Source: Bacillota bacterium (GTDB lineage Bacteria > Bacillota > Limnochordia > Darwinibacteriales > Darwinibacteriaceae). From it: DNA of 49,141 nt. The DNA is taken from NCBI GenBank assembly GCA_012837925.1, contig DUQE01000087.1, forward strand, positions 1 through 49,141, read 5' to 3'. Shown here one piece after another: positions 8,583 to 39,278 of the stretch; the first letter of the stretch is position 1; every line of letters starts with the position of its first letter. The notes under the pieces are model-generated. The model was given only the letters and a program-made list of their open reading frames with translations, ran no database searches and had not been told where the DNA came from. The position numbers and the translations under genes are program-made.

Positions 8583-10409
8583 TTAGGAATGCTTCTTTTG
8601 CCTTTCTCTGGCATGTCTATCCAAAATCAGTTTCCGTAGGCGAAGCGAACGGGGCGTAACCTCCAAACAGTCATCCTGCGCCAGATACGCCAAATGCTGT
8701 TCGAGACTGAGTTGTCTCGGGGTATTCAGCTTAATCAGGTCATCGGAACCTGCGGCCCGCATGTTCGTCATTTGCTTCTTGCGGGCAACATTGATCTCTA
8801 AATCTCCAGAACGGCTATGCTCACCGACAATCATTCCAGCATAAACCTCGGTTCCAGGACCAATAAAGAGTGTCCCCCGCTCTTCAGCAGTCTGGAGAGC
8901 GTAAGCTGTCGCCACTCCGGCCTCCCAGGCCACAAGGCTTCCCGTCTGCCTTTGCGTAATGGCACCAGCCCAAGGCCCAAAGTGGGAAAAGGCGTGGTGC
9001 ATAATGCCGTTACCCCTTGTTTCGGTCAAGAACTGTGAGGCAAAACCAATCAGCCCCCGGGCCGGAACCAAGAACTCCGCCCGCATCCGGTCTTCTCCCC
9101 CTTGGTTGGCCAACTGCAGCTCGCCCCGCCTTTGGCCGATCAACTCCATTACAGAGCCAAAGTAGTCTTGCGGAACGTCAATATGCAGACGCTCATAGGG
9201 TTCAAGAACCCCCTCGTCGGTATGCTGCAGGACAGGTTCGGGCTTCGTCACACAAAAACTGTAGCCCTCGCGCCGCATCGTCTCAATCAAGACGCTCAGG
9301 TGAAGTTCGCCCCGACCCGATACCCGAAATTGGTCCGGTGAATCCGTGTCCTCCACCTGGAGGGCCACATTGACTCTGGCTTCCCGAATCAGGCGATCCC
9401 TGAGTTGACGACTGGTTAGGTACTGGGCATCCTGACCGGCGAGCGGTCCATCATTGACCCGAAACACCATGGTTAGAGTGGGTTGATCAACGGATATAGC
9501 AGGCAGAGGCTTCGGATGATCGACCTGGTTGACTGTTTCCCCAATCTCGATATCCTCCACTCCGCTGAACGCTGCAATATCCCCTGCGGCCATCTTGTCC
9601 ACCGACACCATCTCCAAACCCTGGTACGTATAGACCTGGCTCACCTTGGCACGCCGCGCACTTGTCCTCTCGCTGTGGGTCAGCAGGATCTCCTGCCCAC
9701 TGAGAAGTACACCGCTCTGAATACGTCCCAGGGCAATCCGTCCCACATAATCGTTGTATTCAAGATTACTAATCATCATCTGCAGGGGCCCCTCCGTTTG
9801 AACGGTGGGCTCTGGAACATAATCCACCACGCCCTGCAAAAGAGGAAGGATGCTCCTAGCTCCCTCTGCTTCGCTCAGAAGTTCTTCCAAATCAGCGCTG
9901 GCCCGGCCTGTTAGGGCTGAGGCATAGAAGACAGGAAAGTCCAACTGTTCTTCGCTTGCATCTAAGGCTACAAAAAGGTCGAAGACCTCATCCACCACTC
10001 GATTCGGCTCCGCTGCCGGGCGGTCACATTTATTTACCACGACGATGGGAGACAGCCCTCGCATGAGCGCCTTGTGCAAGACAAAACGAGTCTGGGGCAT
10101 GGGCCCTTCGACGGCATCCACCACAAGGAGAGCTCCATCCACCATACTCAGAATTCGTTCTACTTCACCGCCAAAGTCCGCATGACCAGGCGTATCCACA
10201 ATGTTAATCTTCACATCTCCAAACTGCACCGAGACATTCTTAGCAAGGATCGTGATGCCACGCTCCTTTTCCAGAGCGTTCGAGTCCAGAATTCTGTCAT
10301 CGATTTTTTGGTTTGCTCGAAACACACCGCTTTGCCTCAAAAACGCATCGACCAGTGTCGTCTTGCCATGATCAACGTGGGCGATAATGGCCACATTTCT
10401 AATCTTCAT
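8583..10409 (-). CDS. typA: TypA/BipA ribosome-associated GTPase
   Basis: A 608-residue translational GTPase of the EF-G family that binds ribosomes and aids 50S assembly and stress adaptation. G1 is [10 protein letters not shown]3 is [16 protein letters not shown] and G4 is NKCD; the C-terminal TypA region ([19 protein letters not shown]) is clear. The frame is open to 10505, but ATG at 10409 ([16 protein letters not shown]) with AAAGGA upstream gives the normal family length. A TG-T-TATACT extended -10 lies 34 bases upstream of the start. Confidence 0.96.
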
Positions 10410-33707: not shown

Positions 33708-35690
33708 TCATCGGCGCACAATTTTGTAGTACATCCTGGCTGTTATGGTGTAGACAACAGCATAGAACAGGGTAAAGATCAGGAGCGTTCCCACTGTGCA
33801 CCACGCGAACAAAGCAGTGTTGGTTAGGCTGAAGATGCCCAGGAGCTTTGTCATGAACGGAAAGGCAACAGCAATGTGGACGGCCGATGCAATCATGGGC
33901 AAAAAGAAGACGGTCAGTACCTGCGTTTGAATCGACTTCTTTACTTCCTCATTACTCATACCCACTTTTTGCATGATCTCGAAGCGCTGCTTATCCTCGT
34001 AACCCTCAGTAATCTGCTTGTAGTAGATGATCAGCACCGTTCCCATAATGAACAGGGCTCCCAGGAACAACCCGAGAAAGAACATGCCACCATACAGGGA
34101 GTAAAACGCCTCCCGCACAGTTTCCGCCGTTTCCACTACAACACTGGCATCACCCTCAGGAATATTGGCCCGAAGGTCCCGGTACACTCTGACAAGCTCA
34201 TCACCTGACACAGGCAGATCAAAGCCCCAGTAGTGAGCGAGTTGCGATCCATACTCACCGTAAACTTCTGCCTGGGCCTCATAGATCGCTTCCACAACCC
34301 CCATGTCTTTCACGATCACATAGTGATTGCCTGTGATCGCGGCCAAATTCGACGCTCCTGCAAACTGACTAAGCTTTTCCTTGACGGTGAACGTGCGTTC
34401 CAGCACAGTCAGAGTGTCAGAGGGAAAATCCGCTCCTTCCGAGTATATCAGCACCTCGTTCTCCGCCAGAGTCAAAGTCTTGCCGGTTATGCGACTGTAG
34501 TCTTCTCCCGGGATAAAAAGCAAAGTCCGTAGCCTTCCAGGCAGCCCATTGACCACACTTCGATCCGTAATAAAATCGCTTCCCTGCTGCGATGCCACAA
34601 AGGCCAGCATGCGGCAGTCCATAACGTTGGTCTGCTCCAAACCGTGTTTCTCGAGCACGCCCGAGACATGAGTCCGGAGCTGGGCGATGTATTCGTCCGT
34701 AACGCGATGCGAAGAGATCGTGATGTCCTTAGGATAACGGGTCTTGAGCACATCCTCGACTCCGACGTATAAGGATACGGTGGTGGACAAGGTAACGAGC
34801 ACCATCGAAGACAGGATGCAGATGTTAGCGAGTCCCACCGCATTTCGCTTCATACGGTACATCAATCCAGAAACAGTGGTAAAATGGTTCGCCTTGTAAT
34901 AATAGCGCTTGTTCTTGCGCATCAGCTTTAAAAGCGTGATACTTCCCGAGGTAAAGAGCAGGTACGTTCCTACAATCACCAGCATGACCGCGATAAAGAA
35001 CATCGTTAAGGCCGCGATCGGCGATTCGGTAGTCAGGGCCAAATAGTAGCCACTTCCCAGAGTGACCAGACCGAACAGAGTCATCAGCCACTTCGTCTTG
35101 GGTTCCCGTTCTCCCACCTGTCCACCCTTCAAGAGCTCAATGGGCTTTGCCAGATGAATCTGCCGCAAATTGCCCAGCAAAGTCAGAAAGAAGATCCCTC
35201 CAAACAAGGTGAGTGCCATGACCATGGACGATCCCGAAATCTCAAAGCCCATCTGCACGTCAAACCGAAGGAGTCTCAGCAAAAGCAAGAACATGAGCTT
35301 GGAAAGAACGACTCCTCCAACTAAGCCGACTGCAATGCTGATCACGCCAATGTACATCGTCTCATAGGTCATGATCCTGGCAATGTGTTTCTTTTCCAGC
35401 CCTAGAACATTAAACAGACCAAACTCTTTTTTGCGCCTCTTGATTAAGAAACTGTTGGTATAAAGCAGGAAGATTACCGAAAAGAACCCCACAATGATCG
35501 TGCCAAAATCGAGCATCATTCGTATGCTGGTACCGCCGACCATTTTACCCAGACCCACATTCTGGGAAAGGGCGTGCATGATGTAGTACATCGTCACGGC
35601 TGCTGCGCTTGTCAACATATACGGAAGATATGTCTGGGCGTTCTTTCGGATGTTCTCGACAGCCAGTTTCGAATAGAAGAATCTAGTCAC
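33708..35690 (-). CDS. BceB-type ABC transporter permease (FtsX family)
   Basis: A 660-residue permease with the ten-helix layout of BceB: one helix, a three-helix FtsX block (GFFSVIFLLYTNSFLIKRRKKEFGLFNVLG), two helices, a large extracellular domain of about 200 residues after helix VII, and a final three-helix block. BceAB transporters recognise peptide antibiotics bound to cell-wall lipids and signal to their kinase. The frame opens at GTG 35702, but GTG 35690 (TRFFYSKLAVENIRKNAQTY) has AGGTGG eight bases upstream and overlaps the TAG of the ATPase gene as GTGACTAG. Confidence 0.9.
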   Translation of the reverse strand: MTRFFYSKLAVENIRKNAQTYLPYMLTSAAAVTMYYIMHALSQNVGLGKMVGGTSIRMMLDFGTIIVGFFSVIFLLYTNSFLIKRRKKEFGLFNVLGLEKKHIARIMTYETMYIGVISIAVGLVGGVVLSKLMFLLLLRLLRFDVQMGFEISGSSMVMALTLFGGIFFLTLLGNLRQIHLAKPIELLKGGQVGEREPKTKWLMTLFGLVTLGSGYYLALTTESPIAALTMFFIAVMLVIVGTYLLFTSGSITLLKLMRKNKRYYYKANHFTTVSGLMYRMKRNAVGLANICILSSMVLVTLSTTVSLYVGVEDVLKTRYPKDITISSHRVTDEYIAQLRTHVSGVLEKHGLEQTNVMDCRMLAFVASQQGSDFITDRSVVNGLPGRLRTLLFIPGEDYSRITGKTLTLAENEVLIYSEGADFPSDTLTVLERTFTVKEKLSQFAGASNLAAITGNHYVIVKDMGVVEAIYEAQAEVYGEYGSQLAHYWGFDLPVSGDELVRVYRDLRANIPEGDASVVVETAETVREAFYSLYGGMFFLGLFLGALFIMGTVLIIYYKQITEGYEDKQRFEIMQKVGMSNEEVKKSIQTQVLTVFFLPMIASAVHIAVAFPFMTKLLGIFSLTNTALFAWCTVGTLLIFTLFYAVVYTITARMYYKIVRR

Positions 35691-36450
35691 GGCGAGCACC
35701 ACCTGTGGCGATCATGGTCAAGGTGTCCGCAATCTTTTGGTACATTTCTTCTTCTGACGAAACACCCTTGTAAAGCTGGTGAAAGATCTCGCCGTCTTTG
35801 ATAAACAGCACACGCTTGGCGAAACTCGCCGCCTTGGTGCTGTGGGTGACCATGAGTATGGTCTGCCCTTCCTCGTTAATATCTCGGAACAAACGCAACA
35901 GACTATCGGTGGATCGAGAATCCAAGGCGCCCGTGGGCTCGTCGGCCAAAATAAGTTGCGGTTCTGTAATCAAAGCTCTGGCAATGGCCGTTCTTTGCTT
36001 TTCACCACCCGACACTTCATAGGGATACTTGGCCAGAATTGGTTCGATCCCCAACTTACGGGCAATCGGCCGAATGCGGATCTCCATTTCCTCGTAGGAC
36101 TTGCGGGCCAGGACCAAGGGCAAAAAGATGTTGTCTTGAATCGAGAATGTGTCCAATAGGTTGAAGTCCTGGAAAACGAAACCAAGGTTATCTCTGCGAA
36201 AGGCTGCAATTTCCTTTTGTGGAATGGAACCTATACTACGTCCGCTGAGCAGAACCTCACCGGATGTGGGTTTATCCAAGGCGGCCAGAATGTTCAGGAG
36301 CGTCGTCTTTCCTGAACCCGATTCGCCCATGATGGCCACGTATTCGCCCTTTTCCACCGAGAACGAAACATCAGACAGGGCCTGCACATGGTTTCCCCCA
36401 AAGCGAGTGGTATACACTTTTTTCACGTTTTTCACGTCAAGCATCTTCAT
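35683..36450 (-). CDS. BceA-type ABC transporter ATP-binding protein
   Basis: A 255-residue ATPase. Walker A is GESGSGKTTLLN, the Q-loop is in GFVFQDFNLLDTF, the signature is VSGGEKQRTAIARAL and Walker B is LILADEPTGALD, the pattern of LolD/MacB/BceA ATPases. The start ATG has GGAGG about nine bases upstream. It is coupled to the permease and lies downstream of a promoter-like element with an imperfect dyad, as expected for a regulator-controlled bceAB pair. All catalytic motifs are intact. Confidence 0.94.
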   Translation of the reverse strand: MKMLDVKNVKKVYTTRFGGNHVQALSDVSFSVEKGEYVAIMGESGSGKTTLLNILAALDKPTSGEVLLSGRSIGSIPQKEIAAFRRDNLGFVFQDFNLLDTFSIQDNIFLPLVLARKSYEEMEIRIRPIARKLGIEPILAKYPYEVSGGEKQRTAIARALITEPQLILADEPTGALDSRSTDSLLRLFRDINEEGQTILMVTHSTKAASFAKRVLFIKDGEIFHQLYKGVSSEEEMYQKIADTLTMIATGGARRD

Positions 36451-36478: not shown

Positions 36479-36517
36479 GTATAGCAAAGGGGGGAAATGC
36501 GCTGCCATAGCTTTGGC
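36479..36517 (-). promoter_or_regulatory. Candidate BceR-type operator and promoter of the bceAB-like genes
   Basis: On the minus strand an extended -10, TGCTATACT (36487-36479), has no good -35. In that place lies an imperfect palindrome, GCCAAAGCTATGGC (36517-36504; 12 of 14 positions symmetric). In known Bce systems the response regulator binds a dyad just upstream of the bceA promoter and activates it, so this arrangement fits; binding is inferred. Confidence 0.5.
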
Positions 36518-36537
36518 TTACACTTCCCCGCCCAATC

Positions 36538-37563
36538 TTACATTTCGGTAAGGTTTCTGTATGGATCGAAGGTTTCGACCATATCGAGTCCAATTTTCAC
36601 TCGAGTTCCCCGACCCACTTCCGATTCTAGAGTAATGGTGTGGGAAAGTTTGTCCAGAATGCGCTTGCACAGGTACAGCCCAATTCCGGTGGAACTCTTC
36701 TCCATTCTGCCAGCATATCCCGTGAATCCCTGTTCAAAGACTCGGGGCAGATCTTCCGGAGCAATGCCAATTCAAGTGTCTTCGATCACCAGCGTCTTCT
36801 TCGCCCGGTCCTCCATATAGACGGAAATTGTTCCCTCTTTGGTGTACTTTAGAGCATTCGAGAAGATTTGACCGATCACAAAGACGAGCCACTTTTCGTC
36901 GGTCAGAACCTCACAGTCCAGTTCCTTAAAATCCAGCCCGATTTTCTTACGGATAAACAGTTTGGCATAGCGGTGTACCGCCTGCCGCACGATATCATCG
37001 AGGCTGTAACGCTTGAGTACAAAGTCTGTGGAAGGGCTTTCCACCCTAAGATATTGCAGAACCATGTCTGCATACTGCTCAATTTTGAAGAGCTCCATGA
37101 GCAGTTCCACGGAGTCTTCGTCGTTCTTCGACTGCAGAGCCAGACGCATAGCAGCAATGGGCGTCTTGATCTGGTAAGCCCACAAGGTGTAATACTCCAC
37201 AAGTTCCCTGCGCTTTTGCTCGGCAGAGGAGGTCAGTTCCCTCTTTTCCTCCGATAAAAGACGAAGGAGCTGTTGATAATCCTGCTCGATCAAGTCCTTG
37301 GACATGGGGAGTTCCAATTCACCATGGGTAATACTCTTGATCAGGGCTGCAAGGTTTTTGTGCTTGCGCGTGAAGGCATAAAAATCGGCGACTGAGACGA
37401 TGCCTCCGATGGACAAACAGAGGACAAGTGCATACCATAGAGGTTCTGTAGGCAATCTGTAGAGCAAAAAGACGACGAAAAAAACAAGGAAGAAGGCGAC
37501 AAAGAGAGTGAACGTCTTTCTGCGCTTTTTCAGATAGGGCAAAAACACCTGACCTCTACTCAT
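36538..37563 (-). pseudogene. BceS-type intramembrane-sensing histidine kinase with in-frame TGA and missing phosphoacceptor His
   Basis: The frame runs 341 codons, interrupted by TGA at 36774-36772 (codon 264). The N-terminus has two helices with almost no outside loop (FVAFFLVFFVVFLLY; ALVLCLSIGGIVSVADFY), the BceS hallmark. The dimerisation box reads LWAYQIKTPIAAMRL, where the family normally has His in WxHQIKTPI; here Tyr130 is encoded by TAC. After VIEDT the TGA replaces the Gly codon of the G1 box, and translation would resume with IGIAPEDLPRVFEQGF, STGIGLYLCK and GRGTRVKI. If not read through, residues 1-263 lack most of the ATP site. It overlaps the regulator gene by four bases. Confidence 0.88.
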
Positions 37564-38231
37564 TTGACCTCATACCCCATACCTTTTTTCGTTGTGATGA
37601 ACTCGGCGAGACCTACGGCTTCGAGCTTACGGCGAAGCCTTGTGACATTGACCGTCAGTGTGTTGTCGTCGACATAACTGTCTGTTTCCCAGAGCATGGT
37701 CATCAGTGCTTCCCTTGGGACCACGTTTCCACTGTTTTCCATGAGCATTTTAAGGATCTTGTATTCGTTACGCGTTAAGTCGATCTGCTCACCGTTATAG
37801 GTTAGAGTGGCGTCACTGGTGTTGAGGATAGCTCCGTGGTGTTCCATGAGATTGGTTTGGCCGGCGAAGTCATAGGTGCGACGCAACATCGCCTGGACTT
37901 TGGCGGTCAAAACGGATAGGTCGAAGGGTTTGGCGATGAAATCGTCCCCACCCATGTTCATGGCCATGACGATGTTCATGTTATCCGCAGCAGAAGAAAT
38001 AAAGATGATGGGCACTTTGGAAAGCTTGCGGATTTCGTTACACCAATGATAGCCGTTGTAAAAGGGGAGGGAAATATCCAAGAGAACCAGTTGAGGATTG
38101 AAGGCAACAAAGTGGGAGAGTACGTCCTCGAAATCAGTAGCGCACTCTACCTCATAGCCCCAGCTCTTGATGTGTTTCTCTATCGTCTTAGCAATGACCG
38201 CGTCGTCCTCAACGATTAGGATACGGTACAT
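37560..38231 (-). CDS. BceR-type response regulator, OmpR family
   Basis: A 223-residue regulator. The receiver has ILIVEDD, the phosphorylated Asp in LVLLDISLPFYNGY and Lys in DDFIAKPFD. The winged-helix domain ends with DDNTLTVNVTRLRRKLE and TTKKGMGYEV, typical of OmpR/BceR proteins. All key residues are present, unlike its partner kinase. The start ATG has GGGGAGG upstream. It follows the threonine aldolase gene by 21 bases and overlaps the kinase gene by four. Confidence 0.94.
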   Translation of the reverse strand: MYRILIVEDDAVIAKTIEKHIKSWGYEVECATDFEDVLSHFVAFNPQLVLLDISLPFYNGYHWCNEIRKLSKVPIIFISSAADNMNIVMAMNMGGDDFIAKPFDLSVLTAKVQAMLRRTYDFAGQTNLMEHHGAILNTSDATLTYNGEQIDLTRNEYKILKMLMENSGNVVPREALMTMLWETDSYVDDNTLTVNVTRLRRKLEAVGLAEFITTKKGMGYEVK

Positions 38232-38252: not shown

Positions 38253-39278
38253 TTACCAGAGCTTTTTGAGATCGTCGATAAACTCGTCCACCGCATGTTC
38301 TTTGGTCGCCCAGGACGTGACAAGACGAATCATGGAATGGTCTGCGTCCACTCGTTTTTGGATCTCGAAGGAATAGGTTTCGGCCAGTTTCCCTATTAGA
38401 TCATTGGGCATGATGGGGAAAATCTGGTTCGATGGCGAGTGCAGCAAGAGTGGACAACCGATTTCGCAAAGGGCGTCTTGCATCTTGGCGGCCATGGCGT
38501 TGGCATGGCGAGCAAGTTCGAAGAACAAATCGTCGCGGAAGAGTTCCCTGAATTGGACTCCCAAAAGGCGTCCTTTAGCCAGCAGGGCTCCCTTTTGCTT
38601 GATGTGAAAGCGGAAGTCTTCTTTCAGACTTTCATTGCAGATGACGAGGGCTTCCCCGATGAAGGCCCCGTTTTTTGTTCCGCCAATGTAAAAGGCGTCC
38701 ACTAAGCCCGCTATATCCCCCAGGGTGAGATCGTTTTGCGATGAGGTCAAGGCCGACCCCAATCTGGCTCCATCCATGAAAAGCAGTAGGTTGTGATCCC
38801 GGCAGAAGGTGCTTAGTGCGGTAAGTTCGGACTTGTTATAGATCGATCCAACCTCGGTGGCATTGGAAATGTACACGAGTCGTGGTTTGACCATATGCTC
38901 GTCTGTGTGGAAGTCCATTGCTTCCTGTACGTCTATTGGAGTGAGTTTGCCTTCGGTTCCCACTTTGGTAATGATCTTATGCCCGGTGGCCTCGATGGCT
39001 CCCGTTTCATGCACTTCCACATGACCGGTCAAAGGAGCGATGACGGCTTCGTGGGGCCTTAGAAATGCCGAAATAGCGATCAGGTTGGTTTGGGTTCCCC
39101 CTGGTATGAGGTGAATATCCACGTCGTTGCGTCCAATTTTCTTCTTGATCAGCTCTGCTGCTTCAAGGCAAAACCTGTCCTCTCCGTAGCCAATGGTCTG
39201 TTCTAAGTTGGTTTCCACCATGGCCTTGAGGATATCGGGGTGTGCCCCTTCACTGTAATCGTTCCTAAAGCTGTACAT
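38253..39278 (-). CDS. ltaE: Low-specificity L-threonine aldolase
   Basis: A 341-residue fold-type I PLP enzyme that splits threonine or allo-threonine to glycine and acetaldehyde. Motifs: NDYSEGAHPDIL at the N-terminus, GGTQTNLIAISAFL, HVEVHETGAIE, the Asp of FMDGARLGSAL, and the PLP Lys in YIGGTKNGA (residues about 200-208). The start ATG has GGAGG 11 bases upstream. It is the first gene ahead of the Bce-type module with only 21 bases between, so it is probably cotranscribed with the regulator, although the functions are not obviously linked. Confidence 0.93.
   Translation of the reverse strand: MYSFRNDYSEGAHPDILKAMVETNLEQTIGYGEDRFCLEAAELIKKKIGRNDVDIHLIPGGTQTNLIAISAFLRPHEAVIAPLTGHVEVHETGAIEATGHKIITKVGTEGKLTPIDVQEAMDFHTDEHMVKPRLVYISNATEVGSIYNKSELTALSTFCRDHNLLLFMDGARLGSALTSSQNDLTLGDIAGLVDAFYIGGTKNGAFIGEALVICNESLKEDFRFHIKQKGALLAKGRLLGVQFRELFRDDLFFELARHANAMAAKMQDALCEIGCPLLLHSPSNQIFPIMPNDLIGKLAETYSFEIQKRVDADHSMIRLVTSWATKEHAVDEFIDDLKKLW

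Follow-up and report, generated by a model that had tools for sequence, protein, structure and literature searches.

The locus raises the question of whether a sensor kinase gene with two apparently inactivating changes, lying beside an intact regulator and transporter, is a gene in early decay, a maintained pseudokinase or a product of the assembly. It is located in the window, the whole stretch of DNA that was analysed (49,141 nucleotides, contig DUQE01000087.1 of assembly GCA_012837925.1, from an uncultured Bacillota bacterium of the family Darwinibacteriaceae). The cluster is ordered as a threonine aldolase-like gene, a regulator, the kinase, an ATPase and a permease, the last four being adjacent and in a single orientation, with the following features.

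38253 to 39278, minus strand: threonine aldolase-like gene, 21 bp upstream of the regulator, named from a reading of its own sequence
37560 to 38231, minus strand: OmpR-family response regulator (bceR-like), intact
36538 to 37563, minus strand: bceS-like intramembrane-sensing histidine kinase gene, disrupted, 341 codons plus stop
37174 to 37176, minus strand: TAC (Tyr130) at the phosphoacceptor His position, aligned with BceS His124
36772 to 36774, minus strand: premature TGA at codon 264, where relatives have the first Gly of their G1 box (EDT-G-IGIAPEDLP)
36541 to 36771, minus strand: rest of the kinase frame after the stop, open, 74-85% identity, as conserved as in congeners
36491 to 36529, minus strand: inverted repeat of 39 bp, conserved in the genus (also in the congener loci L031-L037), with a TATACT box downstream
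35683 to 36450, minus strand: bceA-like ABC ATPase, intact
33708 to 35702, minus strand: bceB-like FtsX-type permease, intact, with an FtsX Pfam match

Judged by its sequence, the cluster is a Bce-type peptide-antibiotic sensing and resistance module, sharing with BceRS-BceAB of B. subtilis the set and the order of response regulator, histidine kinase, ABC ATPase and permease. The stop codon TGA of the regulator shares bases with the kinase ATG in an ATGA overlap. The kinase has two N-terminal hydrophobic segments (residues 14-42 and 40-65) with almost no loop between them, resembling the two membrane segments and very short loop of B. subtilis BceS, and it matches BceS (PDB chain 8g3a_D) in phmmer with an E value of 1.4e-10; it differs from BceS in having Tyr in place of the phosphoacceptor His and in stopping at codon 263 of 341. 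The permease is full length (664 amino acids) with ~217 residues between hydrophobic segments (315-532), a likeness to the FtsX permease of BceRS-BceAB with its long stretch between hydrophobic segments, and it probably contains the long extracellular domain of ~200 residues, set between membrane helices, that marks the Bce type. Walker A, signature and Walker B motifs are all present in the ATPase, and the regulator keeps its acidic pocket, the Asp in LLDISLP (D52) and the Lys in AKPF (K101). The claim of the initial annotation that the regulator (with its Asp), the ATPase and the permease are intact is borne out by D52, the three ATPase motifs and the length of the permease. The same cluster order is found in six of seven congeners, in three of these with a permease cut off where the examined stretch ends, and neither the kinase nor a close regulator was found in the congener G004. 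The threonine aldolase-like gene adjoins the regulator upstream also in the six module-bearing congeners, and the two genes may be co-transcribed.

The kinase frame (37563-36538, minus strand) has 263 codons up to the TGA at 36774-36772 and continues open to a TAA at 36540-36538. Translation and homologues confirm what had been proposed from the letters alone, that the TGA stands at the first Gly of the G1 box and that the frame then runs to a normal end; the boxes of the CA domain are still present in the untranslated frame past the TGA. The second change, Tyr130, lies in the context LWAYQIKTPIAAM and corresponds in a phmmer alignment (8g3a_D) to the phosphoacceptor of B. subtilis BceS, His124, a residue thought to be autophosphorylated in trans (PMC10314905). 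In DivL an H to Y change abrogates kinase activity (PMC4211667). Of the features of an active BceS-type kinase, the H-box His is thus absent and a complete CA domain (G1, F and G2 boxes) is not translated.

Both positions are invariant in relatives. The six gene-bearing congeners and G013 have CAC or CAT at codon 130 and a Gly codon at 264. Among the homologous loci, some of which duplicate one another, His stands at position 130 in 51/51 and Gly at position 264 in 50/50 of those reaching it. An alignment with BceS homologues including the congeners, proposed at the outset as a check, leaves His130 and Gly264 unchanged throughout with Tyr kept in no relative, and the initial reading of Tyr130 (TAC) where BceS-like kinases have His is confirmed. 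An H-box DNA pattern allowing His or Tyr gives 47 matches in 398 Bacillota genomes (45 His and 2 Tyr), and the sole other Tyr match, in G077, belongs to a gene that frameshifts and stops have already broken up. G077 was for this reason rejected as a maintained Tyr variant, and G018 contig 2 was rejected as a Tyr-variant kinase, being a chance match. No intact Bce-type Tyr kinase was found among the candidates followed up from class-wide and phylum-wide pattern searches, and of all the species covered (congeners and more distant genomes) this genome is the only one to combine Tyr130 with the stop. Two of the loci, L033 in G013 and L034 in G003, encode identical kinase proteins in genomes assigned to different genera, which suggests a shared or misbinned contig.

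The age of the changes was examined with a codon model (GY94-like, F3x4, own implementation) across seven genomes of the genus, with the branch of this genome, G000, set against the background. Omega for kinase residues 1-263 is 0.100 on the G000 branch compared with 0.125 for the background, and for residues 265-338 it is 0.064 compared with 0.080. The corresponding values are 0.020 and 0.042 for the regulator, 0.036 and 0.060 for the ATPase, and 0.067 and 0.117 for the permease. Relaxed selection in the G000 lineage is not seen by this model before or after the stop, nor in the regulator, ATPase or permease. For kinase residues 110-338 the profile likelihood gives an upper 95% bound of omega of ~0.10 (background 0.077), so that, if neutral omega is 1, at most ~3% of the long G000 branch would have been neutral, an age bound made coarse by nearly saturated synonymous divergence. 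Of 179 otherwise invariant sites, 13 are changed, a number that fits the length of the branch, judged against the other congeners. The lack of relaxed selection, together with changes that fit the branch length, indicates that the kinase gene was functional through almost the whole time since its lineage separated, and an older decay of the kinase was rejected because relaxed selection is not seen. The relaxed selection characteristic of a pseudogene is thus missing, as a very recent loss would predict.

The element between the kinase and ATPase genes has the form GGGGAAGTGTAAGCCA-N6-TGGCA-N3-CATTTCCCC followed by a TATACT-like box and is nearly invariant across the genus in spite of the near saturation of synonymous sites. 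It would serve as the promoter/operator of the transporter genes and is likely a binding site for the regulator. The genome contains no second copy within 3 mismatches, and a regulon extending beyond the kinase locus was rejected since the element is single-copy at that threshold. An RNA hairpin at the element is stable but not clearly above shuffles (z -1.25), and the element is therefore read as a DNA site; no binding-site motif of a Bce regulator matching it was found in the literature.

The lesions being real in the deposited sequence, the partners intact and selection not relaxed, two readings are left: a loss of very recent date, or a draft assembly with alleles or errors at the two sites. 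The probable explanation is the first, a Bce-type module of a single draft genome in which kinase function has very recently been lost and all else is intact. In relatives, by analogy with BceRS-BceAB of B. subtilis, the permease/ATPase complex would activate the kinase, which would autophosphorylate on His and serve as phosphate donor to the regulator; the regulator would in turn switch on the transporter genes from the element between the kinase and ATPase genes. Here the acceptor His is replaced by Tyr and translation would stop short of the latter half of the ATP-binding domain, and either change alone should abolish autophosphorylation. The kinase has presumably lost its activity, which would leave the regulator without its own kinase and the transporter at basal expression, with no induction. 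The locus looks like an ordinary young case of loss of function and not like new signalling.

That the lesions do not represent the population is unlikely. The consensus would then join minority or strain-specific alleles, or carry one or two errors, with most cells having a working kinase, and the draft state of the assembly (202 contigs, 94.5% complete, 3.8% contamination) is compatible with this, as is the lack of relaxed selection anywhere in the kinase gene, which a working gene would also show. It is opposed by the presence of two independent substitutions in the same gene, both inactivating, and by a survey of two domain families in the assembly: none of the 78 ABC_tran matches has an internal stop, and among the 17 HATPase_c matches only the kinase has one, the other 16 being free of them. 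The initial argument that two lesions speak against one sequencing error is a fair point, but in a draft of 202 contigs both could be alleles of a mixed population or, less likely, consensus errors. The same survey of the two families, taken with neighbouring genes that end in TGA, makes general noise and recoding unlikely. Recoding or readthrough, in which the TGA is read as an amino acid to give a full-length kinase, is barely credible and was rejected: the frame is open to a normal end and its post-stop part is conserved, as this would require, but TGA is the stop codon of several intact genes in the window, the adjacent upstream regulator among them, no internal TGA occurs in the other HATPase_c and ABC_tran matches of the genome, and Tyr130 would still leave the kinase inactive.

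Retention of the 263-residue product as a non-catalytic partner, binding the transporter and regulator via its membrane and DHp parts, is rather improbable; in its variants the product would act as a brake on the transporter or skew how a non-cognate kinase phosphorylates the regulator. One precedent is ChrS of C. glutamicum, in which a CA-domain frameshift arising in laboratory evolution removes catalysis and yields a pseudokinase that increases expression of the exporter by way of the paralogue HrrS; the same experiment also produced a nonsense mutation in the CA domain (PMC9491836). The two cases are alike in the loss of the catalytic domain with the membrane and DHp parts kept, and in the intact regulator and ABC exporter alongside (PMC9491836). 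ChrS differs in having an intact His and HrrS to phosphorylate its regulator, whereas a search of this genome found no second Bce-type kinase or permease to act as HrrS does; other, non-Bce-type kinases occur. DivL of Caulobacter offers a natural replacement of the phosphoacceptor His by Tyr (PMC4211667), but the DivL Tyr is conserved across orthologues and its CA domain is complete, whereas here just one genome has the Tyr, and the CA domain is truncated. BceS is reported to restrain BceAB by lowering its basal ATPase activity (PMC10314905), which is consistent with a role for a retained product, as is the constraint on residues before the stop. The residues after the stop, which would be free to drift if only the 263-residue product were kept, are equally constrained, and Tyr is kept in no relative. 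A functional pseudokinase of the DivL or ChrS type is recognized by an inactivating change maintained across orthologues or strains, and this change is present in one genome among the species examined. Of the two outcomes offered by the initial annotation, early decay is favoured by the post-stop constraint and by there being only two inactivating changes; a regulator driven by another kinase gains no positive support, there being no Bce-type paralogue, no relative with Tyr, and a dead gene around the other Tyr.

One of the two changes falls exactly at the catalytic residue, an outcome of only 6 of 2223 possible missense changes, a figure tempered by codon 130 having been noticed because of its importance. 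A catalytic-site missense among few changes is atypical of random decay and leaves room for selection on kinase loss. Selection for the loss, with the 263-residue product surviving in a non-catalytic role beside the transporter and regulator and the module decoupled from drug sensing, is a long shot; if true, it would constitute a naturally occurring Bce-type pseudokinase.

The recent loss of kinase function, if real, provides a snapshot of two-component decay as it starts, with the sensor kinase going first and the regulator, transporter and promoter element still whole. The case reveals no new mechanism by itself, and it cautions that the presence of the genes alone does not imply a working resistance response. 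Broken Bce-type kinases recur across Bacillota genomes, and disrupted genes in G018, G113 and G077 were met without a targeted search. On G018 contig 1 (L082 5320-6277), from the same family as this genome, the kinase is without its first ~150 residues and the ATPase has 95 amino acids, with no regulator or permease found in 12 kb. In G077 (L131 ~8840-9410) the remains of a Bce-type kinase have Tyr at the His position along with many stops and frameshifts. Decay in both is far more advanced than here, whereas the kinase on G113 contig 46 (L116) has its His and is interrupted by a single in-frame TAG just before the N-box, the frame being otherwise intact. The existence of several independent broken kinases indicates that kinase loss is a recurring, ordinary event.
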